A DNA stretch of 20,228 nt from Asaia bogorensis (GTDB taxonomy: Bacteria > Pseudomonadota > Alphaproteobacteria > Acetobacterales > Acetobacteraceae): positions 1 through 20,228 of the forward strand of contig CAMBXJ010000017.1 of the NCBI GenBank assembly GCA_945871455.1, given 5' to 3'. Below the pieces are notes generated by a model that was not told where the DNA came from, did no database searches, and saw only the letters and a program-made list of their open reading frames with translations. Shown here piece by piece: positions 4,290 through 20,228 of this stretch (positions within the stretch are counted from its first letter, which is position 1; the number at the start of each line of letters is the position of its first letter). Both the position numbers and the translations under genes were made by a program.

Positions 4290-4801
4290 AGCACGTACCG
4301 GTCGGGATCGGCGAGTATCACCGCCCGGACCGCCTCATGATATTTGACATAGCCGGTGCAGCGGCAGAGATGCCCATCCAGCGCGCGCTCGATCGTCGCT
4401 TCCAGATCGGCGCGGTTGATTTTCTGCCGGACCAGACGCTCGATCAGCACCTGGGCTTCGTTGAGGAAGCCGGCGGTGCAGTAGCCGCACTGGAAGGCGA
4501 AATGTTCGACGAAGGCCTTCTGCAGCGCGGTCAAGACGCCGTCCTTCGCGTGTCCCTCGATGGTGCGGATCGCCTTGCCCTGGAAGGCGATCGCGGGCGC
4601 GACGCAGGTCGGGCGCGTGTGGCTGGTGCCGTCCGGATCGTCGACGATGACCACGCAGCTCAGGCACTGCGCGGCGCCGCATCCGAACTTGGTGCCGGTC
4701 ATGCCGAGGACTTCCCGCAGGAAGTCGTTCATTGACAGGTCGTCGCGGACCTCGGTCGGCCCCTGGGGGCGGCCGTTGATGGTCAGGGAAAGGGTTGTCA
4801 C
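4286..4801 (-). CDS. iorA: [2Fe-2S] subunit of molybdenum hydroxylase (IorA-like)
   Basis: This 171-residue protein carries both clusters typical of xanthine oxidase-family small subunits. The N-terminal plant-type cluster uses Cys41, Cys46, Cys49 and Cys66 (CGAAQCLSC...C). The C-terminal cluster uses Cys105, Cys108, Cys146 and Cys148 (CGYC...CRC). The GTG start at 4801 overlaps the TGA of the large-subunit gene, so the two are translationally coupled; a reading frame extending further upstream is antisense-like sequence inside the large-subunit gene. No signal peptide is visible, so export would require riding with the Tat-signal-bearing large subunit, as is known for other enzymes of this family. 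The two-subunit arrangement without an FAD subunit is that of IorAB and related cytochrome-linked dehydrogenases. The iorA symbol denotes resemblance, not proven substrate. Confidence 0.85.
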   Translation of the reverse strand: MTTLSLTINGRPQGPTEVRDDLSMNDFLREVLGMTGTKFGCGAAQCLSCVVIVDDPDGTSHTRPTCVAPAIAFQGKAIRTIEGHAKDGVLTALQKAFVEHFAFQCGYCTAGFLNEAQVLIERLVRQKINRADLEATIERALDGHLCRCTGYVKYHEAVRAVILADPDRYVL

Positions 4802-7563
4802 GTCATGGCCTTCTTCAGCATGTCCGGCGTGACCGGCAGGGATTGGAAGCGGTAGCCGGTTGCGTCGTGGATCGCGTTCAACAGGGCCGGAACGATCGGG
4901 ATCATCACGACCTCCGCCATGCCCTTGGGCGGTTCCTTGGGGGAAACCGGCGGCAGGACCTCGATTTCCAGCCGGCCGAGCGGCAGGTCGGAAGCGCGGG
5001 CGACCAGGTAGTCGCCGAGGTTCCACTGGCCGTTGCCGGGCCCGCCCTCGAACGGCGGCAGGGTTTCGAGCAGGGCGTAGCCGACGCCCATGGCGAACCC
5101 GCCTTGCGCCTGGCCCTGCACGAGTTCGGGTACCAGGACCTCTCCGCATTCAAAAACGCTGTAGGCCGCGGCGATGCGCACCGCGCCGGTCGCGCGGGTG
5201 ACCTCGACCCGGACCACCGTGCCGCAGGAGGAGGTGAAGGACGTGCCGATGCGATTATAGTCCGTCGGCGGGAAGAAGACGGCGCTGCGGTCGATGGTCC
5301 GGAACGCCCCGCCGCCATGGCGGACCGCGAGGGCGTCGATCTCCGCCGCCCAGTCCGCGCCGCCGCCCAGGGGAAAGGCCGCGTGTGCCCAGGCCCAGCG
5401 CGAGAAGGCATGCGCCATCGCGCCGGTCACGCCGCCGCGGGCATGGGCCCTGGCCGCGATGTCCGCCTGCGCGAGCGGGGGCAGGCCGGAGAAGATCAGC
5501 TCATTCCCCTGCCAGAACGCTTGCTCGAACAGGTATTCGCGGGGATCGCCCGGGGCGATGCCCCACAGGTCCAGCGCTGCTGGCCACAGCCCGAAGCGGA
5601 AGATGACCCGCGCGGCCTGCGCCGCCGCCTGGGTGCCGACATGGGCGCCGATGGAGGCACTGGTTGCTGTTGAAATCTGCGGCGCCCAGCGCGGGTTCCT
5701 TTGTCCCGCGTCCTGGTCCGCCTGGGACATCATGTAGGGATCGCCCGTTGTGACCAGGCCGAGTTCATCGAACATGTCGATCCGCGCGACGCTGACGGTG
5801 CCGGCGGTTCGGCCGAGGATCGCGGCGACGCGGCGGGCGATGGCGGTGCCGATGCCGTTGCCCATCTCCACGGCGTCGGCGTGGATGGTGATCGCGCCGT
5901 CTGGGGCGACCTCGATCCGCCCGAGCGAACAGTCGGCGCCGGTGCCGTAGTCCTTGGTGCAGCAGGCGACCCCGGTGCCGACCAGAACGCCGTCCGGGCT
6001 GGCCTTCTGCCTTGCTCGATCCCGCCAGATCGGGTGGACGGCGAGCTTGTCGAGGATCTCCGGCGTGCGCACCGACACGGTCCAGGGATTGCCGGTCATG
6101 GTGCGCCCGCCGGTCTTCAGCAGGTTCCGCCGCCGCAGTTCGATCGGGTCGATGCGGAGGATCGTCGCGGCCTCATCGACCAGGGTTTCCAGCGCCGTCA
6201 TGGTCTGCAGGGTGCCGTATCCGCGCATCGATCCGGCGGTGACGCCGCGGGTGTGTTCGGCGACCGTGGTCACGTCGACCTTGGGGACGTCGTAGATGCC
6301 GATCGCGCCGGTGGCGCCGACGACCGCGACGCTACCGGAATAATTCGCAAGCCCGCCGCCATCGATGACGTGGTCCGCCGCGAAGGCCACCATCCGGCCG
6401 GTCGCGCGCTCGATCCCGATCTGGGAGCGCATGCGGAACGCGTGCCGCTTGACCCCGCCCTGGAACTGCTGGAACCGATCATGGGCAAGCCGGATCGGGT
6501 GCCCAGGCAGGAACAGCGCGGCGAGGGCGGTGTACAGGGGGAAAGGCGTATGGTCGCGCCCGCCGAAGCCGCCGCCGACATAGGCAAAGCGCGCATGGAT
6601 GCGGCTGGGTTTGAAGTTCGGACTGGCTTCCCCGAGCAGGAAGGCGACGGAACTGGCCGCCTCGAACGGGGACTGCACGCCCAGCAGGATGTCGAGTGAC
6701 TTCGATTGCGGTTCGAACCACGCCAGGCCGCATTCCGGTTCCAGGAACATCGGATCGACCGACTGCGTGTCGAAGGTTCGGTCGAGGACCATTATATCCG
6801 ACGATGGTTCGGCGAGGGTCCTGCGGACGTCCTCTCCGAAGGTTGCGCCCTTGGCATATTCGCCCCCGGCGGCCACGGGCAGAGGCTCCCAGATCGGGCG
6901 GCCGGAGCCTTCGGTGAAGCCCGGGCTGACCCAGCCTGCGTTCAGCGGGGAATAGAGGTCGGGGTCGGCCGGGGTGCGGCCGGCGATCCGGGTGAAGCGA
7001 AACGCCGCGTAGTTCGGTCGGGTGAGCGGGCCGGTTTCGGCGCCGAAGCGCACGAGGGTGCCGTTGCGGAACGCCGTGCGGGCCCGGTCGAAGGCGTCGA
7101 AGGTCTCGAACAACAGCAGCGCCACCGGCTGGCCGAGATAGAGCGGGGTCTGTCCGACTGAGCAGAACAGGTCGCCTTCATAGAAGGGGGGAACGCGCGT
7201 GCCGGCTCTCGCAAGGTCGGCCGCGGTCACCACCACCGTCGGCCGTGACCCGGCGTCGAGGCTTGCGATGTCGAGGCCCTGATAGGTATGCGTGGCGTCT
7301 GGCGCGCGCACGAGCAGGGCATGCGCCGTCTCGGAGGGCCAGCCGTCCATGTCCCGCGCGCGGAAGTCGGAGGCGTAGACCTTGGCGCCGGTCACCTTCG
7401 CCACGCCATCGACCCGGCCGATGGGCGGGCCGCCGAAACCGCCCGCCGGCGGGATGTCGGTGGCAGGCAAGGGGGCGGCGCGCGTGCCCGCGAACCGGGT
7501 CATGCTGAGCATGATTCCGCTGACAGTACCCCACTTCAGAAACTCGCGGCGGGACGGCTGCAT
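4798..7563 (-). CDS. iorB: Molybdopterin-binding large subunit of Mo hydroxylase (IorB-like), Tat-exported
   Basis: The 921-residue protein starts with a twin-arginine signal, SRREFLKWG (residues 4-12), followed by a hydrophobic segment. The body matches IorB-like large subunits of the xanthine dehydrogenase/aldehyde oxidase superfamily: an early GRVDGVAKVTGAKVYASDF domain entry, then MFLEPECGLAWF and VGGGFGGRDH, the molybdopterin-contacting region. Near the C-terminus KEPPKGMAEV corresponds to the GEPP motif that carries the catalytic base, placing it at about Glu877. The length fits an undivided family member. It is first in a four-gene operon. The typical reaction is water-derived hydroxylation of an N-heterocycle or aldehyde. 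The substrate here cannot be read from sequence, so isoquinoline is only the family name. The upstream gap contains no obvious regulator site. Confidence 0.87.
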   Translation of the reverse strand: MQPSRREFLKWGTVSGIMLSMTRFAGTRAAPLPATDIPPAGGFGGPPIGRVDGVAKVTGAKVYASDFRARDMDGWPSETAHALLVRAPDATHTYQGLDIASLDAGSRPTVVVTAADLARAGTRVPPFYEGDLFCSVGQTPLYLGQPVALLLFETFDAFDRARTAFRNGTLVRFGAETGPLTRPNYAAFRFTRIAGRTPADPDLYSPLNAGWVSPGFTEGSGRPIWEPLPVAAGGEYAKGATFGEDVRRTLAEPSSDIMVLDRTFDTQSVDPMFLEPECGLAWFEPQSKSLDILLGVQSPFEAASSVAFLLGEASPNFKPSRIHARFAYVGGGFGGRDHTPFPLYTALAALFLPGHPIRLAHDRFQQFQGGVKRHAFRMRSQIGIERATGRMVAFAADHVIDGGGLANYSGSVAVVGATGAIGIYDVPKVDVTTVAEHTRGVTAGSMRGYGTLQTMTALETLVDEAATILRIDPIELRRRNLLKTGGRTMTGNPWTVSVRTPEILDKLAVHPIWRDRARQKASPDGVLVGTGVACCTKDYGTGADCSLGRIEVAPDGAITIHADAVEMGNGIGTAIARRVAAILGRTAGTVSVARIDMFDELGLVTTGDPYMMSQADQDAGQRNPRWAPQISTATSASIGAHVGTQAAAQAARVIFRFGLWPAALDLWGIAPGDPREYLFEQAFWQGNELIFSGLPPLAQADIAARAHARGGVTGAMAHAFSRWAWAHAAFPLGGGADWAAEIDALAVRHGGGAFRTIDRSAVFFPPTDYNRIGTSFTSSCGTVVRVEVTRATGAVRIAAAYSVFECGEVLVPELVQGQAQGGFAMGVGYALLETLPPFEGGPGNGQWNLGDYLVARASDLPLGRLEIEVLPPVSPKEPPKGMAEVVMIPIVPALLNAIHDATGYRFQSLPVTPDMLKKAMT

Positions 7564-9667: not shown

Positions 9668-10749
9668 AGCCGCAATACCGGCACAAAACCAACCGCGTGC
9701 GCCCCTTTGTCCTCGGTGCGAAGGTCAGCCCTCGCGGATGTTCGCGGCCTTTGCAACGGACGATCACGGATTTCGCAGCGGACACGCCCTTCGCCCAGGT
9801 CCCGTTGAAATTGCGCGAGCATTACGGTTTCGAGATCGGCGAAAGCACGATCCAGAGGGTCACTCTGGGCCATGCCCAGGCCATTTTCGAGGCCGGTCGC
9901 GCGTCTGTGGACTTCCCGGTGGCACCAGGCCAGCACAAGCAAATCGTGGCCCAGATCGACGGGGGCATGGTGCCGATCATGAAGCCGGACGCAGAACAGA
10001 AGGACAAGCGCAAGGGGAAGAAGCTGTCGTGGAGGGAGGCGAAGATCTCGCTCGCGCACGCCAAGGGAAGTCGCACGCCGGTCTACGGCGGCGGGATAGA
10101 AGGCGGCGTGGAGGAAGCGGGGCGGCAACTGTTCGCCTGCGCGGTTCGGGCGGGTTTCGGGTCGGATTCGCGCGTGCACGCGGTGGGTGACGGCGCGCCG
10201 TGGATTGTCGGTCAGATCGAAGACCGGTTCGGCGAACAAGGCAGCTATTTACTCGATCTCTATCATGTTTGCGAGTACCTGAACGCGGCCGCCAAGACCA
10301 TCGTTCCGGCGGCGGCGGAGAACGCCGCCGCCGTGAAAGCCTGGATGGAGACGCAAAAGGACGCCCTGAAGACGGGGCGCGTTGATGCGGTTCTCGGCGC
10401 CCTATTTCCCCACCGCGAAGCGCTCGATGTCAGCGACGACCATGCCCCGGTCCGCATATGCCACCGCTATCTGGGCACCCGCAAAGACCAGTTGAAATAT
10501 GCCGAGGCCATTGCCGAAGGGCTTCCGATCGGCTCCGGAGAAATCGAAAGCGCGCATCGCTGTGTCGCGCAAAAGCGCCTGAAGCTCCCCGGCGCCTGGT
10601 GGCTGGTTGAGCACGCAGAACACATGCTCGCGCTGCGGATCAACCACCTGAACGGCGACTGGGAAGCCTACTGGGCCGGGATCGTCGCCAACACACACGC
10701 GCCTGCCAATCTCAACCAGCCAAAGTTATCACAGAAGGCCGCCGCTTGA
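9628..10749 (+). CDS. ISKra4 transposase, downstream frame (catalytic DDE part)
   Basis: After the -1 shift the frame reads 373 residues to TGA at 10749. Catalytic acidic residues are visible in three expected contexts: QIDGGMVPIM (first Asp, near 9958), VGDGAPWIVGQ (second Asp, near 10189) and GSGEIESAHR (Glu, near 10540). The phrases LLDLYHVCEYL and IGSGEIESAHRCV are typical of ISKra4/ISAzba1-like transposases. An internal start (9697) exists but would give an incomplete protein, so expression by frameshift from 9362 is more likely. No inactivating stop is present. Confidence 0.82.
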   Translation, partial: LRWHTKFGEITVIEPQYRHKTNRVRPFVLGAKVSPRGCSRPLQRTITDFAADTPFAQVPLKLREHYGFEIGESTIQRVTLGHAQAIFEAGRASVDFPVAPGQHKQIVAQIDGGMVPIMKPDAEQKDKRKGKKLSWREAKISLAHAKGSRTPVYGGGIEGGVEEAGRQLFACAVRAGFGSDSRVHAVGDGAPWIVGQIEDRFGEQGSYLLDLYHVCEYLNAAAKTIVPAAAENAAAVKAWMETQKDALKTGRVDAVLGALFPHREALDVSDDHAPVRICHRYLGTRKDQLKYAEAIAEGLPIGSGEIESAHRCVAQKRLKLPGAWWLVEHAEHMLALRINHLNGDWEAYWAGIVANTHAPANLNQPKLSQKAAA

Positions 10750-10750
10750 T

Positions 10751-10772
10751 CGCACAGCTTTGGTTCGCACCC
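10751..10772. repeat. ISKra4 right terminal inverted repeat
   Basis: Read on the minus strand from 10772 it begins GGGTGCGA, matching the left end at 9301-9308 exactly, with further agreement at a TGTG block 17-20 bases in. It overlaps the end of the transposase gene region and is followed by the right copy of the target duplication. Confidence 0.82.
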
Positions 10773-10781
10773 TAGACCGAA
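10773..10781. repeat. Target site duplication, right copy
   Basis: TAGACCGAA, identical to 9292-9300. It lies eight to sixteen bases before the ATG of the coxG-like gene, so the target was that gene's translation leader. Confidence 0.9.
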
Positions 10782-10788
10782 CATCGAA

Positions 10789-11454
10789 ATGACAGGTGAG
10801 CGGCGGATCGCCGCGCCGCCCAAGGTCGTATGGGATGCATTGAACGATCCCGCCGTCCTGAAGGCCAGCATCCCCGGGTGTGAACGGTTGGAGAAGCTCT
10901 CGGACACCGAGATGAAGGCGGCCATATCGATCACGCTCGGTCCAATCTCCGCGAAGTTCAATGGTGCGGTGCAACTGTCGGACATTGATCCACCAACTGG
11001 CTACAGGATCAGCGGCGTGGGGCAAGGCCGTGTGGCTGGCTTTGCGAAGGGCGGTGCCAATGTGACGCTGATGCCGGACCAGCCGGACACGATCCTGTCC
11101 TATGCAGTCAATGCGCAGGTTGGTGGGAAACTGGCACATCTTGGCACGCGCTTGATCGACGCCACCGCGAAACAGATGGCAGATGCGTTCTTCGACCGCT
11201 TTTCAGGGCATGTCTTGGCCATGGTGCCTGCTGTTGAACCAGTTCCAGTCGTCGACCCGATTGCTTCGCAAGTGACAAACCCAGGTGAACTCGAGACGAC
11301 GAAAACCGCGCCAATCAAGTATGATCTCGATTCGCGGTCATCACGGGCAATCATTGTGAAGCAGCGTCGCCATGTTCTCGAGGTGCACAGAGCCGTTTGG
11401 GTCGGAGGCTGCGTCGTTGCCGCGGCGGTGCTATTGATCGCTGTCTTGCGCTGA
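10789..11454 (+). CDS. coxG: CoxG-family SRPBCC protein with C-terminal membrane anchor
   Basis: This 221-residue protein matches CoxG (carbon monoxide dehydrogenase subunit G family): MTGERRIAAPPKVVWDALND, then PAVLKASIPGCERLEKLSD and GPISAKFNGAVQLSDIDPP, then AQVGGKLAHLGTRLIDATAKQMADAFF. The SRPBCC domain covers about 1-145. A linker follows, then a membrane segment near the C-terminus (VWVGGCVVAAAVLLIAVL). In CO dehydrogenase systems CoxG recruits the Mo enzyme to the membrane; relatives accompany other Mo hydroxylases. No CO dehydrogenase genes are seen here. The nearest candidate partner is the IorAB-like operon 3 kb away. The ATG at 10789 follows the IS-generated duplication and an upstream in-frame TAA. 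The insertion leaves only a weak ribosome binding site, so expression may be altered. Confidence 0.82.
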   Translation: MTGERRIAAPPKVVWDALNDPAVLKASIPGCERLEKLSDTEMKAAISITLGPISAKFNGAVQLSDIDPPTGYRISGVGQGRVAGFAKGGANVTLMPDQPDTILSYAVNAQVGGKLAHLGTRLIDATAKQMADAFFDRFSGHVLAMVPAVEPVPVVDPIASQVTNPGELETTKTAPIKYDLDSRSSRAIIVKQRRHVLEVHRAVWVGGCVVAAAVLLIAVLR

Positions 11455-11656
11455 GGTCCTTGTGTCACGGGTAGCCTCGGACTTGGCAAGGTTCAGAGTG
11501 GATCAAGTGGCCCCCTGATTGTCAACGTTCCACAACGATATTCCAGTGCCCAGTTTCATCACACATGGGACGCCACGGCTGACATAATGTTGAACCTTTC
11601 CAGAGTTTTACGAGACTAATTGGCAAACCGGTTGCAGCCGGTTTGCCAAATCTTGT
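11455..11656. other. Chromosome/element junction region, probable left attachment site
   Basis: The gap lies between the coxG-like gene and the integrase gene at the end of the phage-like element, so one attachment site should be here. No tRNA or tmRNA 3' end is recognisable. The second att copy is outside the window, so the core cannot be defined. Confidence 0.4.
11620..11649. terminator. Perfect 12-bp hairpin between coxG-like gene and integrase
   Basis: TTGGCAAACCGG (11620-11631) and CCGGTTTGCCAA (11638-11649) pair perfectly around a six-base loop TTGCAG. It lies just after the integrase stop on the minus strand and downstream of the coxG-like gene on the plus strand. It is most simply a terminator serving both directions, although only short T-runs flank it. 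It could also belong to an attachment site. Confidence 0.5.
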
Positions 11657-12694
11657 TTACGGTCCGGCCGGTCTATTGCCAATTCGGCTCATAGCGACCT
11701 TCGCCCATTCCTCCTGATTGGCCGCCTTTGTATAGCGTTCGATCTCCTTCAACGTCGCATGGCCAGTCACCGACGCTATCTGATGCGGGGTGCATCCGGC
11801 CTCGGCCAACCGCCGTGCCGCCGCCTTTCGCAACCCATGGGGCGAAAGGCCAGGCGCGATCCCAGCCTTGCGTGCGCAGTCGATGAACCAATTGTAAAAC
11901 GCATTCCCCGATGCGAACGGCTTGCCTGTTTCGGTCATCAGGAATGTAAGATGATCGGAGGGGCATGCGTCGATAGCCTCCCGCAAGGTGGGGTGCACGG
12001 GGATGGTCAGGCGCTCCCCCGTCTTGTCTTGTTTAACGTCGATTGCGCCGCCGCGAAGATGCTGCCGCCCCATCCGAATCACGTCGGACCGCCTCTGGCC
12101 GGTGTAAAGCAACAGCGCCATTGCGAGTCTGGCGCGGCTTCCCAGGGACCACCGCGCCTCGAACAATTCAATATCGGCCTCTGACCAGGTGGCGAACCCA
12201 TCGGACTTGTAACGAATGCGCCGGACATAGAGCGTCGGGTCATCCGGGCGCCAAGCCCGGTCGACGGCATGGCGCATCAGCAGTCGGAGGATTGATAGCA
12301 ACCGGTTTGCCGCGGCGGGCGTCTCCGCCTTGGCATCCATCATTCCGCGTATGTGCCGCCCTTCCAGAGCGGCAACCGGCTTGTCACCGTTGTCGGCAAG
12401 GAAAGCTTCCACGATTCGCCGATAGTTGGTCTGCGACGCGGGCGACAGCCCTTTGAACGCGGCCGAGGCGTACCAAGAGACGACCAACGCGGACATGCTG
12501 CCCGGCGCGGTCTTGCTCGCACCGATGGGCAGAGGCTTCCCGGCTACGCAAGATTGATAAGCGGCCATGAACTCCGATGACCCCGGCTGGCCTGGCAGTG
12601 CCACGCGGGGGTGCCCCGAGCGCCGAAAGTAATGCCGGATATGCCCATGTCGGTCTTGGAACCGGTGTATGTGTTTTAGTTTCAAGCGAGTCAT
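11657..12694 (-). CDS. int: Tyrosine recombinase integrase of the phage-like element
   Basis: The 345-residue protein has the layout of a phage tyrosine integrase: an N-terminal arm domain (KHIHRFQDRHGHIRHYFRR, about 7-25), a SAM-like core-binding domain (about 66-150) and a C-terminal catalytic domain. Catalytic residues can be placed: Arg201 (TGQRRSD), Lys224 (DKTGE), His286 and Arg289 (HGLRK), His312 (TGHAT) and Tyr321 (ERYTKA). The ATG at 12694 overlaps the stop of the upstream AlpA-like gene (ATGA), indicating coupling; a longer in-frame extension upstream is out-of-frame sequence of that gene. All catalytic residues are intact, so it should be active. The integrase would insert and, with the small HTH partner, excise the element. 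It defines the left boundary. Confidence 0.92.
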   Translation of the reverse strand: MTRLKLKHIHRFQDRHGHIRHYFRRSGHPRVALPGQPGSSEFMAAYQSCVAGKPLPIGASKTAPGSMSALVVSWYASAAFKGLSPASQTNYRRIVEAFLADNGDKPVAALEGRHIRGMMDAKAETPAAANRLLSILRLLMRHAVDRAWRPDDPTLYVRRIRYKSDGFATWSEADIELFEARWSLGSRARLAMALLLYTGQRRSDVIRMGRQHLRGGAIDVKQDKTGERLTIPVHPTLREAIDACPSDHLTFLMTETGKPFASGNAFYNWFIDCARKAGIAPGLSPHGLRKAAARRLAEAGCTPHQIASVTGHATLKEIERYTKAANQEEWAKVAMSRIGNRPAGP

Positions 12695-12936
12695 TGCGCT
12701 GCGTCCCAGGGGTTGATCGTGGCAGCCTGCCCCCGTTTGGGTAGCGCCCGCCATGCCGCACGCACTTCGTCGGAATCCCAAAGCACCCGCCCGTCAACCG
12801 GCCGGGGCTGTGGCATCCGTCCATCCTTAACCAAGCGGTCGAAGAAGACCGCCGACACCCCGACCAACGCCGCCGCCGATTCTCTTGCTACGGCAAAGGG
12901 TATAATCCCGGGGGGAAGGTGGTCGAAGCTCGCCAT
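12691..12936 (-). CDS. AlpA/excisionase-like HTH protein
   Basis: The 81-residue protein contains a MerR/AlpA-style winged helix: RESAAALVGVSAVFFDRLVK, then DGRMPQPRPVDGRVLWDSDEVRAAW. The order HTH, MPQPRPVDGR wing and W-D-S-D-E-V-R-A-W is characteristic of AlpA and phage excisionases. Its stop overlaps the integrase ATG by four bases, the normal coupling of an excision factor with its integrase. The gene begins just three bases after the portal stop (12940), so int and xis may be read through from the head-gene transcript. It could alternatively be a transcriptional activator, as AlpA proteins of satellites often are. Confidence 0.78.
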   Translation of the reverse strand: MASFDHLPPGIIPFAVARESAAALVGVSAVFFDRLVKDGRMPQPRPVDGRVLWDSDEVRAAWRALPKRGQAATINPWDAAQ

Positions 12937-12939
12937 TGC

Positions 12940-14070
12940 CTAGATTCGCGCCCCTGCCGTTACCGCACGCGGCCCCCATCCTTCGATGTCCCGCACTTCA
13001 TTCCGGTCCAGAATGTCATTCTTGACGGCGATTTCCCAAGCCTTCCACCGCGTCTCGAAATCGCCCCTCATCAGTCCTGACAGGTCGATTTCCAGATGTG
13101 TCCCATCGTTGGCATTGAACACAGATCGCGCAAACTCCGCTTCAATCTTTCGGCACCATGGCGCGAGGCTAAATTGTGCGAACCACAAGGAAGCCTGGGC
13201 GCTGTTCGTGAAAGTATTATGCGTGTAATCCTGCACAATTGGCGGCGGCACCTGAAACAACCGGCACAGTTCTTCCACGGAAAACCGGCGCGACCCCAAG
13301 ACCTCCGCATCCTCTGGACTAACCGACAGAGGTTTCCATTTCGCATCATTATCTAAAACCAAGACCCGCCTGGCGTTCCCGACCCCGGTGTGCCTGCGGT
13401 CGAAGGCCGCGGTTACCCGGTCGAATTGCGGTTGGGTCAAGCTGCTCGCGATCTCAATCGCACCGGAGGGTGTCGCCTGGTTTTCCCATGCATTTCCGGC
13501 GAAATCCTGAAGTGAAACCGCATTTCCGACCACGTCCGGTGCCCGCGATATCCGGGACCGGCCAACCAAGCCGTCGTCGCTGCGGTCTTTCAGATAGAAT
13601 ACCTCGGTATCCAGTAGCCGCCGACGCGGCTGCGGATAGGAGGACACGTCGAAGGCGAGCCGACCGGAGCCGAGAAGGACCGGTGCGACAGATTGCCAGG
13701 GAATGGGCCGCAATCCGGTGACGCGCCCGGCGCCGTCGTGCACAATCTCGGCCAGCGCATTGCCGTGCAGCAGTACAGACCCCATCGCCCATTCGATCCA
13801 ATCGGGCCAGGTCATCATCGACCACGGGTTGCGGATCATGCGCGCTACTGGATGGCTGGGCAGTTCCATCCTGCCGCCGTCACCGGACCGGAACACCAAC
13901 GGGGGGAGCGAACCCATGACGCTGCCAATCGCGTTCACGCAGGCAGTAACCGTGCCCAGGTTCTCGGCCAGTTGGACATTGGCCGTTCGCGAACCGGTCA
14001 GGGCCATACCGGCGAAACCGTTCTGGTACGCGGCGCGGGTCTCAGGTTCACGCCGGCGGAAGGGCCACAT
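12940..14070 (-). CDS. HK97-family phage portal protein
   Basis: The 376-residue product matches HK97 gp3-type portals: an N-terminal MWPFRRRE, then LAENLGTVTACVNAIGSVMGSLP and HPVARMIRNPWSMMTWPDWIEW, then GNALAEIVHDGAGRVTGLRPI. Further conserved parts are RISRAPDVVGNAVSLQDFA, then LDNDAKWKPLSVSPEDAE and FQVPPPIVQDYTHNTFTNSA. It forms the dodecameric DNA entry ring at one capsid vertex and docks the terminase. Length is normal and no break is visible. Its ATG (14070-14068) shares a base with the protease stop (TAATG). Unusually, it is the last head gene in transcription order. Confidence 0.93.
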   Translation of the reverse strand: MWPFRRREPETRAAYQNGFAGMALTGSRTANVQLAENLGTVTACVNAIGSVMGSLPPLVFRSGDGGRMELPSHPVARMIRNPWSMMTWPDWIEWAMGSVLLHGNALAEIVHDGAGRVTGLRPIPWQSVAPVLLGSGRLAFDVSSYPQPRRRLLDTEVFYLKDRSDDGLVGRSRISRAPDVVGNAVSLQDFAGNAWENQATPSGAIEIASSLTQPQFDRVTAAFDRRHTGVGNARRVLVLDNDAKWKPLSVSPEDAEVLGSRRFSVEELCRLFQVPPPIVQDYTHNTFTNSAQASLWFAQFSLAPWCRKIEAEFARSVFNANDGTHLEIDLSGLMRGDFETRWKAWEIAVKNDILDRNEVRDIEGWGPRAVTAGARI

Positions 14071-14591
14071 TAGATCGTCTCCAAGATGATACGGCGCAAG
14101 CGGGTATGCGCTTCGATGCGCCCAAGCATTTTCGCGCGGGCGGATACGGTGGTCTGGCAGTATGCAGGGAATGCCTGGACTATCGATATCTCGAACAGAT
14201 CGACGGCACGAAGCTCGCGGCGGTCAGACGACGGCCAGGCGTCATCGGTGGCCTTGAACCCGAACGACATTCCGCCCAGGTCGCGACGCTCTGCCAGCGC
14301 GAGGATGTCGCTCCCCAACTGGGTTTCGGGGAGCGCAATATCAAAGGCCAGTCCGCGGGCATCCTCGACCAGTTTGAGTGTCCCCGATCCGGTTCGGCCG
14401 AGTAGCCGGGCCTGATCGTGGTCCACCAACGCCAGAACGTCACGGCCGGATGTCAGGGACGCCCGGAAAGCCCCCGGCCGAATGGTTTCAGAAAAGCCCC
14501 CGATGACGGCGGGAACGTCGAACACCGCAGCATAGCCGACAAGACGCCGGCCGGCGGTGCGTAGCTCGAGCGCTGCACTGCGGTGTTCCAT
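14070..14591 (-). CDS. HK97-family prohead (maturation) protease
   Basis: The 173-residue protein is a U35/S63-like prohead protease. RRLVGYAAVFDVPAVIGGFSE and IRPGAFRASL are the conserved N-terminal strands. The catalytic His is in VDHDQARLLGR (His58) and the catalytic Ser in GGMSFGF (Ser109). DLFEISIVQAFPAY is the conserved C-terminal strand. It would cleave the delta domain of the capsid protein during maturation. It starts three bases after the capsid stop and overlaps the portal start. Length is normal, and the nucleophile and His are intact. Confidence 0.92.
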   Translation of the reverse strand: MEHRSAALELRTAGRRLVGYAAVFDVPAVIGGFSETIRPGAFRASLTSGRDVLALVDHDQARLLGRTGSGTLKLVEDARGLAFDIALPETQLGSDILALAERRDLGGMSFGFKATDDAWPSSDRRELRAVDLFEISIVQAFPAYCQTTVSARAKMLGRIEAHTRLRRIILETI

Positions 14592-14594
14592 CGT

Positions 14595-15866
14595 TCAGGC
14601 CAAAATGTCTTGGATGGCGCCGAACGACTCCGGGTGCCGCACGCTGATATCGCAGGTGGTCATGGCCCGGACTTGCACGTTCCCTTTGCTGTAGGCGGTC
14701 GATTCGTATGGGTTGACCAGTACATCGATCTCGGACCAAAGGCCGATTAGCAGGTCCGCCCAATTGCCATAGATCAGCGCCGAGCAAACCCCGGACGATG
14801 TCCCTTTGGTGAGGTTTGCCGGGACATTGTTGGAGAACGCGCGGGGCATACCCTGGAACACGACCTCGGCGCCGAGCGGTCGGGCCTGGGTGTCCTTCAG
14901 CTTGGCGACCGCCCGGCGAACCTTCGTGTTCGTGAGGAACGCCAAACTACCCGCCTCCGCGTTGGCATCCGCGACGGTCCCCATTAGGTCCGCCACGGCA
15001 TCGTAGGTCACCGCAAGTCCATTGGTGCCCATGGCAACCGAACCAATGCCCGAAGTGTTCAAGACGCCGCGCGGCTGGTTGCTGGCACCAGTGCCCGCGA
15101 TGGCTGCCGCGTCGAGTGACTGCGCCAGCACCTGCGCGAGGATCCCGCGGACAAGCTGTTCCACGTCCGGGCTGGATTGCAGCAACAAGTTCCGTGAGAA
15201 CTCGGTAATTGAACCGACGTGTTTCGGGGCAAGGGTCACTTGGTCGGTTTGCGGGTCGGTCGCGGTGATGGCAGCGTTCTCCGCAACCCAAGTCGCTGTG
15301 GCATCGGCCTTGACGCGGGGGATCGCGACGTTACCGGTGAGACCCGACAACACGGTCGCGCCGAGTTGGCGGACCACCATGGACGCCCGCAGTCGGTCAA
15401 TCGTCTGGTTTGCCAGGACATCCGTTGAAATGATGTTGCTACCAGGGCCGCCCGCCGGATTGCCCGTCGTGAATACCCGTGTCTCAAGCGCGGCCAGGGG
15501 GACGGCGACACCCTGGAACTGCCGGCCGGATCGGCGCGCGACCTCGGCACTGATTTCCCGCTCGCGTCCCGCGTCGACGCCCGGCATGCCGGCCGCTCCG
15601 GCCAGCGCCCTTACGATGCTGAACTGCCTGACCTCATGGTCAAAGGAACGGTCGGACCCCTGGATGGGCTGGCCGGTTGCCCGTCGGTCCATGTCGTCAA
15701 CCATGGCTTGGCGGTGTTCCGAAAGCGCCAGGGCCGCGGCCTCGCTTTCCAGGGCCGTCCACCGGGTTTGCGCTTCGGTTGGCAGGGCATCGGGATGTGC
15801 GGCGTGAATCGACCGCATTTCTACGCGAATCGCGTCACGTTTGGCCAGGATTTCAAGCATCGTCAT
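14595..15866 (-). CDS. HK97-family major capsid protein
   Basis: The 423-residue protein has an N-terminal predicted coiled-coil delta domain (about 1-65, MTMLEILAKRDAIRVEMRSI onward) and a mature HK97-fold shell domain. Conserved parts include RASMVVRQLGATVLSGLTGN, then IPRVKADATATWVAENAAIT and the axial-domain phrase LAPKHVGSITEFSRNLLLQ. Later come GTGASNQPRGVLNTSGIGSV and a C-terminal DISVRHPESFGAIQDI. Maturation cleavage is expected between the delta domain and about residue 110, but no exact site is assigned. The ATG overlaps the TGA of the upstream MerR-like gene, so capsid synthesis should be coupled to it. It builds the shell of the particle; shell size cannot be read from sequence. 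Confidence 0.94.
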   Translation of the reverse strand: MTMLEILAKRDAIRVEMRSIHAAHPDALPTEAQTRWTALESEAAALALSEHRQAMVDDMDRRATGQPIQGSDRSFDHEVRQFSIVRALAGAAGMPGVDAGREREISAEVARRSGRQFQGVAVPLAALETRVFTTGNPAGGPGSNIISTDVLANQTIDRLRASMVVRQLGATVLSGLTGNVAIPRVKADATATWVAENAAITATDPQTDQVTLAPKHVGSITEFSRNLLLQSSPDVEQLVRGILAQVLAQSLDAAAIAGTGASNQPRGVLNTSGIGSVAMGTNGLAVTYDAVADLMGTVADANAEAGSLAFLTNTKVRRAVAKLKDTQARPLGAEVVFQGMPRAFSNNVPANLTKGTSSGVCSALIYGNWADLLIGLWSEIDVLVNPYESTAYSKGNVQVRAMTTCDISVRHPESFGAIQDILA

Positions 15867-16684
15867 CGGCTTTTCTCCGTCTTGGGGTTATGCCGCCTCG
15901 CGGCGGGTGGGTTTGGAAGTCCGTCTAAGGGACCGGGCGTCTCGCGACGTTCGATCTCACTACGCACTGCCGCTTCCTGGCTAATGCGCTGCATCCGCGC
16001 TCTTTCGTGTGTGTCTTGCAATGATTCGAAGCGGTCATAGTCCGCGTCGGCAGGGCTGCCTTGGTCGCCATCAAGGAAGCGGGCGTACCAGACGCTGTCT
16101 TGATAGGTCAGTCCAACGAATACCCGCCGCCCTTGTTCGTCTGTCGTCCACCGACGGGCGAAATCCTCGGCCTCTGGCAACGGCGCCGGTTCTACGGCCG
16201 GCAATCCGGCTATCACCCGCTCCATTTGTCTGATTATGCGGTCAATGAAGCGGTCGGTGCGTAATAGCAACGCGAAATCGGGAGCGTCGGGGCGAGTTAT
16301 TCCGGCCGGGTCAGCCTCGGCCGAAGCCTCATGGAATTGACGAACCAGCAACTCTCCCGTTGACGGGTGCAGCGTTAGAAGCGCCGATACTGGCCGGTCG
16401 CCCGGCCTCGGGAACTGGCGGGCGATCAATCGTGGATTGACGATCATATGCCAAATGAGTCGGGCCTTCGATACAAACACGCCTTGTCGTTGAATCTCAT
16501 GGACCAACGCCAATTGGATCACGTCCGAGCCACGATACAGCGGGTGATGTCCTTTCCCGACGGACACGCTCAGCAGCACAGTTTTACGCTCTACCCATTT
16601 AGCAAGGGTCCCTCGGGCCAGACCAGGAATGCTGGCCAGAACCTGCTGGGTGGTGAGTTGCGGCCGGGCTGTGTCGAAATTCAT
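15863..16684 (-). CDS. MerR-like HTH protein coupled to the capsid gene
   Basis: The 273-residue protein is not a family I can name. Residues about 10-70 look like a MerR-type winged helix: LTTQQVLASIPGLARGTLAK, then a short wing and YRGSDVIQLALVHEIQRQGV. The rest, about 75-273, contains a conserved-looking HEASAEADPAG segment, a Pro-rich middle and a charged basic C-terminus (RRHNPKTEKSR). Its last bases overlap the capsid ATG (ATGA), so it is translated with the head operon. Options are a regulator of the element, a small-terminase-like DNA recogniser (no other small terminase is visible) or a helper-sensing factor. Two related 19-bp palindromes lie directly upstream and are plausible binding sites. 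The assignment of HTH type is from pattern only. Confidence 0.55.
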   Translation of the reverse strand: MNFDTARPQLTTQQVLASIPGLARGTLAKWVERKTVLLSVSVGKGHHPLYRGSDVIQLALVHEIQRQGVFVSKARLIWHMIVNPRLIARQFPRPGDRPVSALLTLHPSTGELLVRQFHEASAEADPAGITRPDAPDFALLLRTDRFIDRIIRQMERVIAGLPAVEPAPLPEAEDFARRWTTDEQGRRVFVGLTYQDSVWYARFLDGDQGSPADADYDRFESLQDTHERARMQRISQEAAVRSEIERRETPGPLDGLPNPPAARRHNPKTEKSR

Positions 16685-16736
16685 TCATTGTGTATGACCG
16701 ATGTCGTAGGTGCTTTCAAGGGTCATCAAAGTAACG

Positions 16737-16755
16737 TGTAGCGTGATACGCTACA
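16737..16755. promoter_or_regulatory. Palindromic operator 1 (19 bp) and adjoining -10
   Basis: TGTAGCGTGATACGCTACA is a perfect palindrome of seven-base arms around TGATA. On the plus strand it is followed at once by TATACT (16756-16761), a -10-like hexamer, and preceded by GTAACG, a poor -35 (16731-16736). A 19-bp palindrome exactly filling the spacer is the classical MerR-type promoter design, in which the regulator untwists an over-long spacer. It would control the plus-strand small genes and possibly the regulator gene itself. The -35 is weak, so this reading is tentative. Confidence 0.55.
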
Positions 16756-16796
16756 TATACTTACCCAGCGGTACCCCCTGATCGCAAAGGCCTAGA

Positions 16797-16815
16797 TGTA
16801 GCCTGACAGGATACA
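16797..16815. promoter_or_regulatory. Palindromic operator 2 (19 bp), related to operator 1
   Basis: TGTAGCCTGACAGGATACA is a near-perfect palindrome and shares the TGTAGC-TGA-TACA framework with operator 1. The centres of the two sites are 60 bp apart. The pair lies in the only divergent intergenic region of the element. Confidence 0.5.
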
Positions 16816-16868
16816 AATTCACGGCTCAAAAATAGATTTGCCCTGGGGCGGGATTCATGCCCATGGTG

Positions 16869-16886
16869 CGGGTGTTCGCGCACCCG
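16869..16886. other. Hairpin in the leader of the first small plus-strand gene
   Basis: CGGGTG (16869-16874) and CACCCG (16881-16886) pair around TTCGCG. No T-run follows, so it is not a typical terminator. It may structure the leader RNA of the gene starting at 16929. Confidence 0.25.
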
Positions 16887-16928
16887 TGCTGTCCTACCCA
16901 ACCCACCCAACGGAAGGAACCCGCCGAA

Positions 16929-17219
16929 ATGAATCACGTCAGCAAACCTACACCGACCTTCGCCCAGGCGATATGTGACCTAGGGCACGCCCGTGCGCTA
17001 ATCGACGCCCCTGGGATATCCGACGCGGAGGCTGCAAAGCGCTCGGACGCCGCCACACGTATCGTGATCCGCGCCGCCAGTATACCCGCCATTAACCCGC
17101 CCGACCTCGCCCGTAAGCTGATTCTGGCACACATGGACGGCGCCGCGGATGGATCCCCGGCAGGTCTCGCTCTGCTGGACAGTGCTTACGCCGACGCCAG
17201 GCGGTTGCTCGGCTTGTAA
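16929..17219 (+). CDS. Small orphan protein 1 of the phage-like element
   Basis: I do not recognise this 96-residue protein. The ATG at 16929 follows GGAAGGA (16912-16918) at good spacing; an upstream in-frame ATG at 16857 lies in the leader and lacks such a site. The protein is helical and Ala-rich: FAQAICDLGHARALIDAPGI, then SDAEAAKRSDAATRIVIRAA and HMDGAADGSPAGLALLDSAY. There is no signal peptide or membrane segment. It is the first plus-strand gene after the operator region, opposite to the head genes, and so is probably an early or regulatory gene of the element. Confidence 0.6.
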   Translation: MNHVSKPTPTFAQAICDLGHARALIDAPGISDAEAAKRSDAATRIVIRAASIPAINPPDLARKLILAHMDGAADGSPAGLALLDSAYADARRLLGL

Positions 17220-17250
17220 CTATCCGACACAACTAAAGGGAAAACAGAGC

Positions 17251-17511
17251 ATGGTAGAAGCATCGCGTATCTACGTATTCGAGGAACCGCGGGGTTTGCA
17301 GGTGTTCAGGGAATACAGCACCGATGATTTCGGAGGCACCTTTCCAGCGGTCGGCGATGTCATTGTCGATCGATCGGATATGCAAAACCCACGCCTGCTT
17401 GAAGTCAGACAGCGATATTTCACCACAGCGTCCCAGCCACTTACGCACTTTGCTTGTTTGGTGGTTCACCCACGGGACGCTGCGGAAAGTGAGCGGGATA
17501 TCCTGGCCTAA
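17251..17511 (+). CDS. Small orphan protein 2 of the phage-like element
   Basis: I do not recognise this 86-residue protein. Its ATG at 17251 follows AAAGGG at fair spacing, 31 bp after the stop of the first small gene, so the two probably form an operon. The sequence looks beta-rich: ASRIYVFEEPRGLQVFREYS, then GDVIVDRSDMQNPRLLEVRQ and HFACLVVHP. Its TAA ends three bases before the end of the convergent terminase gene, a very tight tail-to-tail arrangement. Function is unknown; candidates are an anti-helper or capsid-size factor, without evidence. Confidence 0.55.
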   Translation: MVEASRIYVFEEPRGLQVFREYSTDDFGGTFPAVGDVIVDRSDMQNPRLLEVRQRYFTTASQPLTHFACLVVHPRDAAESERDILA

Positions 17512-17514
17512 CCG

Positions 17515-19113
17515 TCACGCCGCGAAGGTCAGGCCGGTGAACGTGAAATCCCGCGGCGCCGGCCGCCGCGACGCCAGCCCAACCGCGGTAACCGCAGCAA
17601 CAGCCGGATCAATGCGTCCCCGCGACCGCAGTTTGGACAGTTTCCGGTTCCCGGCCGGGTCCGCCTCGATAGCGGCGTTCGCCAGAGCCCAACGCAATAG
17701 AGGGTTCCCAGCGTGCGCCAGGCGCCGTTCTAATATCAACCCCTCATATGCCGTCAGGCTTGGCGACACGTCCTTGTAGCCGGCGCCATGGGGTTCCAAC
17801 GGCAGAGTGATCCCCTCACGGTCCATCTGTGCCCGCAAGTCCTCAATCAACCAGCGATCAGAGGCAATGGCCTGTAGGTCAAGCGCGTCGGTTTGTCGGG
17901 CAATCCAGGCCCCAGGCCATGCCCGGTCTGTGGTCCGGCCAGGGACCATCACCACGTGGCCCTGCGTCACCCAGGCCGGATAGGGGGCGTTGTCCGCCCG
18001 CGCCTTGTCGTGAAGCAGCATGGCGGGCAGGAAAGCCCAGACCCGCAAGGCCCCCGTGTCGGGCCAGAACAGCGCGAAGGCCGACAGGTCCGCCGGTCCC
18101 GCCGCCAGGTCCAATCCGCCCCAGCACGGCCCGGACGCCTCGGCCGAGGCGTTGCAGGCATCCCAATCGGCCGGTGCAATCCAGCGGTCATCCGTCGCCA
18201 CCGGCTGATTGAGGATATAGGCGCGGAAGGACGATTCCAGGGACGGGATGCGCCGCGCCTGTTCAGCCTGAACCCGCACGTCATCCATTGACCGGAAAGC
18301 CCCCAGCGCCGGGTTTGCGGCCCGCCATGCGGCTTCCGACCACGGATCGGCCTCTGGATCGGCCGAGAATATGAAGGCACGGAAGGCCGGATCGTCCACC
18401 GCGCCGGCCGCGATGTCCCGCGCGTAGGCAATCAGTTCTTCCAGGGGGTTGTCAGGATCGGGCGAGCGCGTCGAGATGACAAAGCCCAGTGGTTCCGCGT
18501 GCGCGCCCATGCCGGTTCTCAGGGCTTCCAACAGGTCCCGGCCGCGCCATTGCGCTACCTCATCCCCAATCCAGAAACTGGGCGACATGCCATGGGCTTT
18601 CCGGGCGTCACTCGACAGGGCTTGGTAGACGCTGCCTGTCTCCGCATCCTCGATTTCCTTCTTAAAATCCCGGAAGGTCAACCGGTTCGCCAGATCAGGT
18701 CGCGCCAGCGCCATACGTTTCATTGCCGAGTAGACGATGGCCGCCTGGGCACGGTCCGCCGCGCCAGACAGTACTTGCCCACCCTGGACGGCTTCCGGGC
18801 CGCACAAGTGCGCCAAAGCCAGGGCCGCGGCTAACCCGGTCTTGCCGTTCTTACGGCCCATGGTTAGCAGCGCCAGCCGCACCGTCCGTTTGCCCTTGCG
18901 GTTGGTCGCGTAAACCTCCTTCACGATTGCCACCTGCCACGGCCGCAGCTTGAACGCTCGGCCCGCGTGCTGTCCGCTCGGCACGGTCAGGCCGCCGATC
19001 CAGGATATCAGGCGGTCGGCTCGGGTGCGGCCGGTCACGGACGGTGCTATCGGCAACCCCCGGGAGGCAGACGGGGGCTTTATCGGCTTGGCGCCGGGAC
19101 CTCGGGCGCCCAT
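17515..19113 (-). CDS. Large terminase subunit (TerL, Terminase_1 type)
   Basis: The 532-residue packaging motor has both expected halves. The N-terminal ATPase carries GRKNGKT as Walker A (about 86-92) and FWIGDE as Walker B with acidic pair Asp184-Glu185. The C-terminal RNase H-like nuclease has GGLDLA (Asp335) and later RIDPAVAAVTAVGLA (Asp502). FKLRPWQVAIVKEVYA and the MGARGPGAKP opening are typical of the HK97-like group. It cuts concatemers and pumps DNA into the prohead through the portal. The ATG overlaps the HNH stop (TAATG), so it is coupled to it. No separate small terminase gene is visible. It is separated from portal and capsid by 3 kb that includes oppositely oriented genes. Confidence 0.93.
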   Translation of the reverse strand: MGARGPGAKPIKPPSASRGLPIAPSVTGRTRADRLISWIGGLTVPSGQHAGRAFKLRPWQVAIVKEVYATNRKGKRTVRLALLTMGRKNGKTGLAAALALAHLCGPEAVQGGQVLSGAADRAQAAIVYSAMKRMALARPDLANRLTFRDFKKEIEDAETGSVYQALSSDARKAHGMSPSFWIGDEVAQWRGRDLLEALRTGMGAHAEPLGFVISTRSPDPDNPLEELIAYARDIAAGAVDDPAFRAFIFSADPEADPWSEAAWRAANPALGAFRSMDDVRVQAEQARRIPSLESSFRAYILNQPVATDDRWIAPADWDACNASAEASGPCWGGLDLAAGPADLSAFALFWPDTGALRVWAFLPAMLLHDKARADNAPYPAWVTQGHVVMVPGRTTDRAWPGAWIARQTDALDLQAIASDRWLIEDLRAQMDREGITLPLEPHGAGYKDVSPSLTAYEGLILERRLAHAGNPLLRWALANAAIEADPAGNRKLSKLRSRGRIDPAVAAVTAVGLASRRPAPRDFTFTGLTFAA

Positions 19114-19466
19114 TACCGACGCCCCCGACCGGGCAAACTAACTCTAGGCGCTTGGTTGGCACGGTCCACGCCCCCTAGCTGTGAGCTATTTTTCGTGTTC
19201 CACCAGTGCCCTGGGTCGTTCGGCGTCCCATCCGCAGTGCAGCCCAGCGCCCGTGGCTCGCCCCCCTGGCGCCTCTGGTTGTGGCATCGGGTGCATAGGC
19301 CGCGGAGGTTGCCCAAGCTGTCAGCGCCGCCCTTGGACCGCGGCACGACGTGGTCCGCGGCCACCGACGGCGCGCCGCATCCCCGGGTGGTGCAGACCGG
19401 ATCACGTGCTAAACAGTCCGCCCGCAAGGCACGCCACACCGCTGTCCGGTAATATGCGGCGCTCAT
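19113..19466 (-). CDS. HNH endonuclease, packaging-associated
   Basis: The 117-residue protein is a compact phage HNH nuclease. Four cysteines in two pairs (Cys25, Cys30, Cys58, Cys61) form the structural zinc site. The active site reads ADHVVPRSKGG (His39), NLRGLC (Asn53) and CHNQRR (His62). A longer upstream start is possible, but MSAAYYRTAVW is the normal opening. HNH proteins beside terminase are required for cos cleavage in HK97-type phages and are a hallmark of head-encoding satellites. The gene is coupled to terL and preceded by a repeat-rich noncoding region. Confidence 0.88.
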   Translation of the reverse strand: MSAAYYRTAVWRALRADCLARDPVCTTRGCGAPSVAADHVVPRSKGGADSLGNLRGLCTRCHNQRRQGGEPRALGCTADGTPNDPGHWWNTKNSSQLGGVDRANQAPRVSLPGRGRR

Positions 19467-19632
19467 AACGTGGCACCCCGGACCGGCGCTGCTAGGGCGC
19501 CATGGCAGCACATGGCACCATTTTCCCTATAGACCCCTATGAGTGTACCCCTTGCACTCAGGATTCCGGTGTGCCGCTCTATAGGTGAAATGCTGCCATA
19601 TGCTGCCATGTCCCGCCCTGGGCAAAGGTCCA
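19467..19632. repeat. Repeat-rich noncoding region, candidate cos or replication origin
   Basis: This gap separates the helicase gene from the HNH/terminase pair. The 9-mer TGCTGCCAT occurs twice in tandem (19591-19599 and 19601-19609, within a ten-base unit) and once inverted (ATGGCAGCA, 19502-19510). Between them CCTATAG (19526-19532) pairs with CTATAGG (19579-19585), enclosing a TGAGTG/CACTCA hairpin (19540-19560). Clustered short repeats next to a packaging nuclease and a replication helicase suggest a cos/terminase site or an origin. Which of these it is cannot be told from sequence. Confidence 0.5.
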
Positions 19633-20228
19633 TCATGCCATCGCCTCCCACCAACGGTCGTTTAAGTACTTTGCCGGCCGCCATCCTATGGAGCGTAGCG
19701 CGTTGGTTATCCGCCTTTGCTCGCGGGTTCCCAGACGCTCATTGGGTATGCCCAGCGCTTGTTTGGCGACTTCCGACACGGTGCAGCGGTTCCGTGGCGG
19801 CATTGCCTCATCGGTATCGTCCAGCCCCGGTACGTTCAACCATGCCAGAATCACCGCTGCCCACTCATCGACCTGCTGGCGCGAATCCTGTACGGGCTTG
19901 ATATGCTCGCCTTCAAAATCGCTGTCGGGCCACCATTTCTCGCCACCCATGAACGCTTTCATAGCTTCGGCAAATAGCTGGTCACGGTCCGCGGCTAGCG
20001 CGTCGGTATTGATCGACCTGACGGCAACAGGCCAGAACCGCCGGCCCCCAGTTTCATCGCGAAGGTAGGTCGCCTGATTCGTCGTCCCAATGAACACGCA
20101 TGAACGCGGCTCCTTTACCTCCATGCGGCCGAATTTCGGCGTGTATGCTTCCTCCCGCTTCGTCAGGAATGCCTTTAAGTCGTCTGCCTCGGCCTTGCTG
20201 ATGGATGATAGCTCAGCGACCTCAAGCA
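19633..20228 (-). CDS. VapE-type helicase/primase-associated protein, C-terminal part, runs off right edge
   Basis: The reverse strand is open from the right edge to TGA at 19633-19635, giving about 198 residues. Starting at the edge it reads LEVAELSSISKAEADDLKAF, then LTKREEAYTPKFGRMEVKEP and CVFIGTTNQATYLRDETGGR followed by RFWPVAV. This is the conserved second half of the virulence-associated E (VapE) AAA+ domain, with the sensor-like GTTN and the arginine-rich DETGGRRFW. The end is a winged-helix-like region (VSEVAKQALGIPNERLGTRE). VapE-like proteins often replace a phage primase/helicase in satellites. The N-terminal part, and any primase domain, lies outside the window. An internal ATG (20124) is not the true start. 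Confidence 0.88.
   Translation of the reverse strand, partial: LEVAELSSISKAEADDLKAFLTKREEAYTPKFGRMEVKEPRSCVFIGTTNQATYLRDETGGRRFWPVAVRSINTDALAADRDQLFAEAMKAFMGGEKWWPDSDFEGEHIKPVQDSRQQVDEWAAVILAWLNVPGLDDTDEAMPPRNRCTVSEVAKQALGIPNERLGTREQRRITNALRSIGWRPAKYLNDRWWEAMA

Follow-up and report, generated by a model that had tools for sequence, protein, structure and literature searches.

Capsid-forming phage-inducible chromosomal islands (cf-PICIs) are defined, in the accessible portion of PMC10690885, as satellites that encode a capsid protein, a protease, a portal, connectors, both terminase subunits and an HNH endonuclease, and that take only tails from a helper phage. The PICI, P4-like, PLE and PICMI satellites are likewise integrated and average about 9.5–18 kb, PICMI being smaller (extracts of PMC10803314). 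They use the helper's capsid, reshaped or not (extracts of PMC11389934 and PMC10803314), unlike the element considered here, which has head genes of its own. That element lies at 11620-20228 of a 20,228-nucleotide stretch of Asaia bogorensis DNA, the window, equal to the whole of contig C17 in an assembly of 520 contigs with an estimated completeness of 85%. We put at about 0.84 the probability that it is an integrated, tail-less, capsid-forming satellite of some 10.2-10.4 kb that obtains its tails from a helper. Our best reading is that it represents a new lineage of capsid-forming satellites; the helper dependence, tail theft, head size, regulation and mobilisation discussed below are what we infer from its genes.

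What does the window encode? It has its own major capsid protein (MCP), protease and portal, its own HNH protein and large terminase subunit (TerL), and an integrase, an AlpA-type regulator and a primase, seen as the C-terminal part of a VapE-type protein, all as in a cf-PICI. Because no connector is recognised and no small terminase subunit (TerS) could be assigned, we call the element cf-PICI-like and do not class it as a cf-PICI. The visible part, about 8.6 kb, has the minus-strand order VapE–HNH–TerL–MerR-type–MCP–protease–portal–AlpA–int, with two small plus-strand open reading frames (ORFs) between TerL and the MerR-type gene. An earlier note on this DNA had listed int, AlpA, portal, protease, capsid, TerL, HNH and VapE genes, and all are there with clear profile matches. 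It had also seen the portal gene run directly into xis-int and then chromosome; the portal, AlpA-like and int genes are indeed contiguous, and the sequence past int is a host region, window 10760-11660 being matched by DNA in 30 of the 33 genomes of the genus, its own included. Of VapE only the C-terminal 197 residues are visible, 52% identical to residues 489-671 of the 673-residue VapE of a relative, L110 (L, G and C numbers are our handles for loci, genomes and contigs). The window thus lacks about 488 VapE codons relative to L110, and the size estimate above follows from this. With the L110 protein as query, the whole assembly gave one match, the truncated one where the contig stops (an earlier query had been too distant to match even the window's own VapE part), and the assembly holds no further contig sequence to the right of the window in which to seek a second attachment site.

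Since the right end of the window element is unseen, the question of whether tail genes lie beyond the contig was put to its relatives. Portal matches at E <=1e-120 within the window's taxonomic order amount to 25 loci in 20 of 395 genomes (~5%), the window included; of 385 genomes sampled across the class, G000 and G340 are the only ones with matches as strong. Stretches were fetched for the other 24 portal loci and for G340, G435, G425, G624 and others, several of them cut by contig ends, and the compact head gene order recurs across the portal loci. The capsid protein as query matched 7 loci of named genomes and 54 of viral contigs, the capsid gene being followed by window-related protease and/or portal genes in 3 of the 7 (L003, L004, L006) and 20 of the 54.

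In 21 elements we looked for direct repeats shared by the integrase and VapE sides, and accepted them as attachment (att) repeats in 14 (L105, L106, L108–L111, L113, L114, L170, L174, L177, L178, L182, L185). The repeats are 14–47 bp long, and the right copy lies at an ARAGORN-called tRNA gene (Phe, Ala, Thr, Gly or Asn) in 13 of the 14; that of L114 resembles, by eye, a tRNA 3' half. Chance 14-mers occur elsewhere in the search (one each in L105, L109, L172, L173 and L174), and 14-bp repeats were therefore trusted only inside a tRNA 3' end. The bounded elements measure 9.05–12.16 kb. Joining the flanks of L109 restores an intact tRNA-Gly region, and the corresponding empty site is present, as a single match through the joined flanks, in at least 12 of the 49 genomes of that genus, under a rule that the match extend 20 bp or more past the repeat on its left and 20 bp or more past the tRNA; on the left flank these matches cover little, 20–100 bp. 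The viral contigs L010 and L019 bear terminal repeats of 118 and 105 bp, which mark them as complete circular or permuted genomes of ~10.03 and ~9.99 kb. L019, 10,097 bp with its terminal repeat, has no recognised integrase, and a 472-aa open ORF in it falls in one cluster with AAA_25 proteins from L003 and other loci; it is possibly a non-integrating satellite. In the window itself a 33-bp match to one genome of the genus is a weak, only suggestive candidate for the att core; it sits where att sits in relatives, downstream of the int terminator. L118 and L198, examined in the same connection, gave no Rfam match.

Do these relatives carry a tail module? Two sets of residual ORFs were scanned, drawn mainly from the 14 bounded elements and L010 and L019, with three ORFs from the window and one from L107. 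Excluded were truncated ORFs, those shorter than 45 aa and those already matched by a gene profile, for which eight of our nine served (the MerR-type profile did not). The first set, 95 ORFs, consists of 91 of 93 listed, L010:6537-7223 and the three window ORFs. The second, 76 ORFs, consists of 75 of the 87 ORFs of at least 75 aa and the one from L107; it leaves out the L109 integrase, ten minus-strand L010 ORFs and one L019 ORF, and covers real ORFs of L107, L108, L110 and L182 absent from the first. For the 95 ORFs the best 25 of 46 PHROG families and all 12 Pfam families were examined; for 89 of them, six strong-match proteins having been removed, all 15 PHROG families; and for the 76 further ORFs all 21. 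The families examined include none for tape measure, major tail, baseplate, holin or endolysin proteins, and the visible part of the window has no tail gene. The sole tail-type protein in the residual ORFs is a tail-assembly protein (PHROG 4.9e-41), encoded after the portal at L114:4152-4796 together with a small unknown protein; that satellite may modify the tail it borrows. In the 95 ORFs PADLOC reported 12 families, each with a single member. The earlier note had proposed that the element would be an ordinary complete prophage if tail, baseplate and lysis genes were located past VapE, before the right att site. In the 11 bounded relatives with a VapE-profile ORF no other ORF was called there, the window's own end lying outside its contig, and the note's satellite reading gains support from att-bounded and terminally redundant relatives of about 10 kb without a tail module, with helper dependence presumed.

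How might such an element propagate? The VapE-type protein would replicate the excised circle, and the portal, protease and capsid protein would assemble into a small, element-encoded head, which HNH and TerL would fill with element DNA. The filled head would then be joined to tails supplied by the helper, from which lysis functions and, here, probably connectors would also come. The MerR-type protein might serve as activator, packaging-specificity factor or both. Neighbouring genes in the run from MerR-type to int either overlap or have at most 3 nt between them, if the int start is taken as the likely ATG at 12694, which overlaps the alpA stop (the ORF is open from 12781); the MerR-type gene overlaps the capsid gene start by 4 nt. 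Comparable small overlaps are found at the portal–alpA–int junctions of L105, L110 and L182. Because of these overlaps we regard excisionase and integrase as the last genes of the head unit, and since AlpA and int close an almost gapless unit that opens with the MerR-type gene, the element probably turns on excision and head production at the same time.

The MerR-type protein is rare: a search of 5.8 billion proteins returned three, itself and two others, and L174 encodes a relative at 35%. Its PHROG matches are weak (MerR regulator 0.0057, TerS 0.06). The AlphaFold model has a mean confidence (pLDDT) of 63 and finds the MerR-type CvkR (7xn2) as its best Foldseek match, at E 2.6e-3; in a predicted model of such low confidence only the N-terminal MerR-type winged helix is meaningful. 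Assignment as TerS gained no support from the fold, the search backing that winged helix and nothing more. A helix-turn-helix (HTH)-looking protein is encoded directly before the capsid gene in many other members, judged by eye, and the one in L019 matches MerR_1 at 1.2e-8; L003, L175, L176 and L177 have no obvious one by the same inspection. The protein is a candidate regulator and/or packaging-specificity factor, and the data here fit either role.

A related issue is the terminase. Five of the 14 bounded elements (L105, L106, L113, L178, L185) are unmatched by every TerL and HNH query in tblastn searches, the same is true of loci L112, L172, L173 and L179, and the residual ORF scans with Pfam and PHROG contain no terminase family. 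In the terminase-less pair L112/L185 portal and MCP are under constraint. Are such heads filled by the helper's motor, or by a motor of their own that is unrecognisable? Either would fit; in the former case, elements with their own capsid and portal and no terminase must have their heads filled by the helper's packaging motor. We tentatively suggest, at somewhat less than even odds, that the terminase-less members' own heads are helper-filled and that in the window's branch the MerR-type protein may be a TerS-like factor as well as the switch for excision and head genes. Two TerS queries gave no tblastn match in 20 elements or loci, a set to which the window does not belong; the window HNH protein does match one TerS-named PHROG at 9e-10, via its HNH domain. 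Connector genes occur in some relatives: a head-tail adaptor in L010 (PHROG 2.1e-34), one in L109 between HNH and TerL (PF05135 3.5e-6), and likely homologues, by sequence and place, in L107, L110 and L182, with weak or no Pfam matches.

Several other genes accompany these heads. A small protein family to which we assign no function lies between the terminase/primase genes and the capsid operon (L106:8450-9292, L105:8821-9255, L112:7571-8080, L174:5816-6229, L177:10760-11236 and others); a profile from these five finds it at 11 loci, the matches in L107 and L113 being weak. A LamG/concanavalin-like domain protein, possibly a head decoration, is encoded directly 3' of the portal at L033:8678-9358. 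L004 and L006 have the capsid–protease–portal order and no TerL match in the stretch fetched; upstream in L004 are, by eye, restriction-modification-like genes, and a type I restriction HsdR-like gene stands upstream of the element genes at L018:602-3571.

What speaks against a satellite? Helper, particles, excision and transfer are here presumed from gene content. The end of contig C17 cuts the VapE gene and places the element's right end outside the contig; the candidate att core has no second copy in the assembly and no tRNA at the int end, unlike most relatives, and 7 of the 21 elements searched (L107, L112, L172, L173, L179, L003, L018) have no accepted att repeat. TerS was never the best match for the scanned window ORFs at E 1e-3, and no head-tail connector matched among them, where a divergent one could remain; packaging and tail joining must then rest on helper proteins or unknown ones. 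Small or divergent tail and connector proteins could also evade profiles, as the connector-like protein of L110 did in Pfam. Some ratios of nonsynonymous to synonymous change (dN/dS) are high: window/L175 gives 0.60 for MCP, at 35% identity (portal 0.12, protease 0.18), L170/L018 gives portal 0.26, protease 0.46 and MCP 0.56, and the portal ratio is 0.45 for L103/L173 and 0.65, on very few changes, for L172/L173. Synonymous distances exceed 1 in many pairs and are near saturation in several, so that the ratios are rough.

One might think that the element is the remnant of an ordinary prophage that has lost its tail and lysis genes. Its head genes are of phage type, its window copy is cut, some gene pairs have the ratios above 0.4 just given, and some copies look decayed, such as L171 with its capsid ORF of 188 aa. 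(L171 is one of three lineage portal loci, L171-L173, on a single chromosome, G637 contig C1, where one capsid ORF is shortened and one integrase split.) Decay would not be expected, however, to leave the same compact head order at so many loci, paired att repeats in 14 of 21 elements and terminally redundant contigs of about 10 kb, nor a portal clade that stands apart from phage portals. The closest informative pairs also show strong constraint: dN/dS is 0.04 for portal, 0.14 for protease, 0.06 for MCP and 0.07 for TerL in L108/L182; 0.10, 0.05, 0.07 and 0.08, in the same order, in L109/L182; and, for portal, protease and MCP, 0.12, 0.07 and 0.13 in L180/L181 and 0.05, 0.22 and 0.04 in L112/L185. 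Recurrent size, paired repeats and constrained heads in close pairs together make decay unlikely, including the decayed right end that the earlier note had held out as an alternative, and we regard a prophage remnant as very improbable.

A complete but very small phage, with tail and lysis genes beyond the contig end, is suggested by a contig that stops inside VapE. In 11 of the 14 bounded elements, however, the VapE-profile ORF is terminal, starting 90–381 bp inside the repeat with no called ORF between, and the redundant contigs of about 10 kb lack tail and lysis genes; we give this explanation hardly any credence. No more believable is a domesticated head module, a gene-transfer-agent-like device or storage compartment kept by the host, for which one could cite relatives that keep a constrained head without a terminase (L112/L185), since integrase, excisionase and primase genes and tRNA att repeats point to active mobility, as do the three portal loci of G637 and the different integrases beside near-identical heads in L109/L182 (int 21%, MCP 91% identical), an exchange that is a sign of mobility and not of decay.

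The features of the window element are collected in Table 1. Its integrase is 53-56% identical to those of L103, L105 and L180, and neither small plus-strand ORF has a homologue outside the window among the ORFs of 35 oriented loci; the second of them is given from a start inside a longer called ORF. In the host flank, window 4798-7563 encodes a molybdopterin-binding oxidoreductase-like protein that shares 69% identity with its nearest plasmid-borne match, from Methylocella tundrae; other plasmid-borne matches to this protein are mostly alphaproteobacterial at ~40%, with one from Burkholderia, a distribution that agrees with the alphaproteobacterial host of the earlier note without proving it. 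Between the host genes and the element, an ORF at 9697-10749 resembles by eye an insertion-sequence transposase.

Table 1. Features of the satellite-like element in the window (positions in the 20,228-nucleotide stretch)
Feature	Position	Strand	Evidence or remark
Candidate att core, int end	11542..11574	.	weak; 33 bp, 91% identical to intergenic stretch of same-genus G740
Inverted repeat, probably int terminator	11620..11649	.	self-complementary match; similar palindromes 3' of int in L103, L105, L180 (by eye)
Tyrosine integrase	11657..12694	-	PF00589 1.2e-17; PHROG integrase 4.8e-40
AlpA/excisionase-like regulator	12691..12936	-	PHROG 5e-9 and 3.6e-6; without Pfam match
Portal protein	12940..14070	-	PF04860 1e-87
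Prohead maturation protease (S78)	14070..14591	-	PF04586 2.3e-41
HK97-type MCP	14595..15866	-	PF05065 2e-41
MerR-type DNA-binding protein; regulator and/or small-terminase candidate	15863..16684	-	weak PHROG and fold matches
Small ORF, function unassigned	16857..17219	+	ORF call only
Small ORF, function unassigned	17251..17511	+	ORF call only
TerL, HK97 type	17515..19113	-	TerL_nuclease 7.8e-28; TerL_ATPase 6.9e-22
HNH endonuclease, 1-nt overlap with TerL start	19113..19511	-	PF01844 1.5e-9; PHROG 2.9e-18
VapE-type primase/helicase, C-terminal part, cut by contig end	19633..20226	-	PF05272 1.2e-36

How does this lineage stand to the satellites already described? The single prototype compared is an Escherichia coli stretch that we take, by its gene content, to be the cf-PICI EcCIEDL933; the differences given here are from this prototype and need not hold for every cf-PICI. 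Like the window it has an integrase, an HTH regulator, a primase-type gene (annotated DUF927), HNH and TerL, no annotated tail gene, and its own MCP, protease and portal in the same order. Its arrangement is int...primase-MCP-protease-portal-closure-connector-HNH-TerS-TerL, so the integrase and replication module lies between TerL and MCP, whereas in the window it lies, on the circle, between portal and HNH, and int ends the head unit. TerS and connectors are present in EcCIEDL933; in the lineage no TerS is recognised and connectors are missing or displaced. The proteins are distant, with a BLASTP E of 0.11 for MCP and identities of 28% for portal and 26% for TerL. The lineage is also compact, about 10 kb as against the cf-PICI average of 14 kb stated in the accessible part of PMC10803314.

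The 43 rows of the lineage form a single clade (100/99) in a portal tree of 88 rows, and EcCIEDL933 and vB_KppS-Ant join it (97/82). Support is weak (95/52) for a wider grouping with a head cluster on an Acinetobacter plasmid; L117 and L163 come in at the next fork (87/58). The rows marked phage-like include some without an assignable gene order, L163 among them. Where the portal scores 3e-81 or better and the gene order can be assigned, MCP always precedes portal, EcCIEDL933, vB_KppS-Ant and the Acinetobacter cluster included; loci with weaker scores and an assignable order are portal-first, except those of G252 (L068, L117, L159), L086 and L153. MCP before portal is thus a trait that the satellites share, and we have dropped it as a novelty. 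The proposal that this is a distinct lineage, made in the earlier note partly on gene order, holds for the portal tree; what sets the lineage apart is the placement of the integrase and replication module, the absence of a recognised TerS and the missing or displaced connectors, and the MCP-protease-portal order is not new. In the literature searched, from which subscription journals were mostly absent and in which the original cf-PICI report is represented through other papers, the accessible text contained no description of this lineage.

Other systems lie further off. vB_KppS-Ant, a 16.5-kb induced element, and the Acinetobacter cluster have MCP-protease-portal with HNH and/or TerL and connectors nearby, and from their gene tables we read both as capsid-forming-satellite-like; they differ in the order around int, their portals are 28% and 33% identical to that of the window, and vB_KppS-Ant carries an annotated tape-measure gene. 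The Streptomyces satellites MulchRoom and MiniFlayer have, like the window, their own head and packaging genes, and differ in having no primase, in having scaffolding and TerS, and in using virulent helpers (all as given in the accessible portion of PMC10690885); neither is among the listed top phage matches for portal, MCP and TerL. Charybdis elements were rejected as relatives, being described, in the part of PMC12324425 available, as without portal, terminase or HK97 capsid. Among 50,697 phage records the best match listed is 31-38% identical for portal, MCP and TerL. The window TerL is HK97-phage-like, 37% identical to that of HK544, a temperate phage of HK97 type with HK97-type head genes, against 26% for EcCIEDL933; HK97-type phages themselves, at 40 kb, have the order TerS-TerL-portal-protease-MCP-connectors-tail, unlike the window.

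A compact lineage of about 10 kb with tRNA att sites, together with its terminase-less subtype, extends the range of functions that a satellite may provide itself, and offers clean systems for testing which of the head, packaging and connector functions it can borrow. Classical PICIs bring packaging specificity and borrow the head; the terminase-less subtype, if read as bringing the head and borrowing the motor, would be their mirror image.

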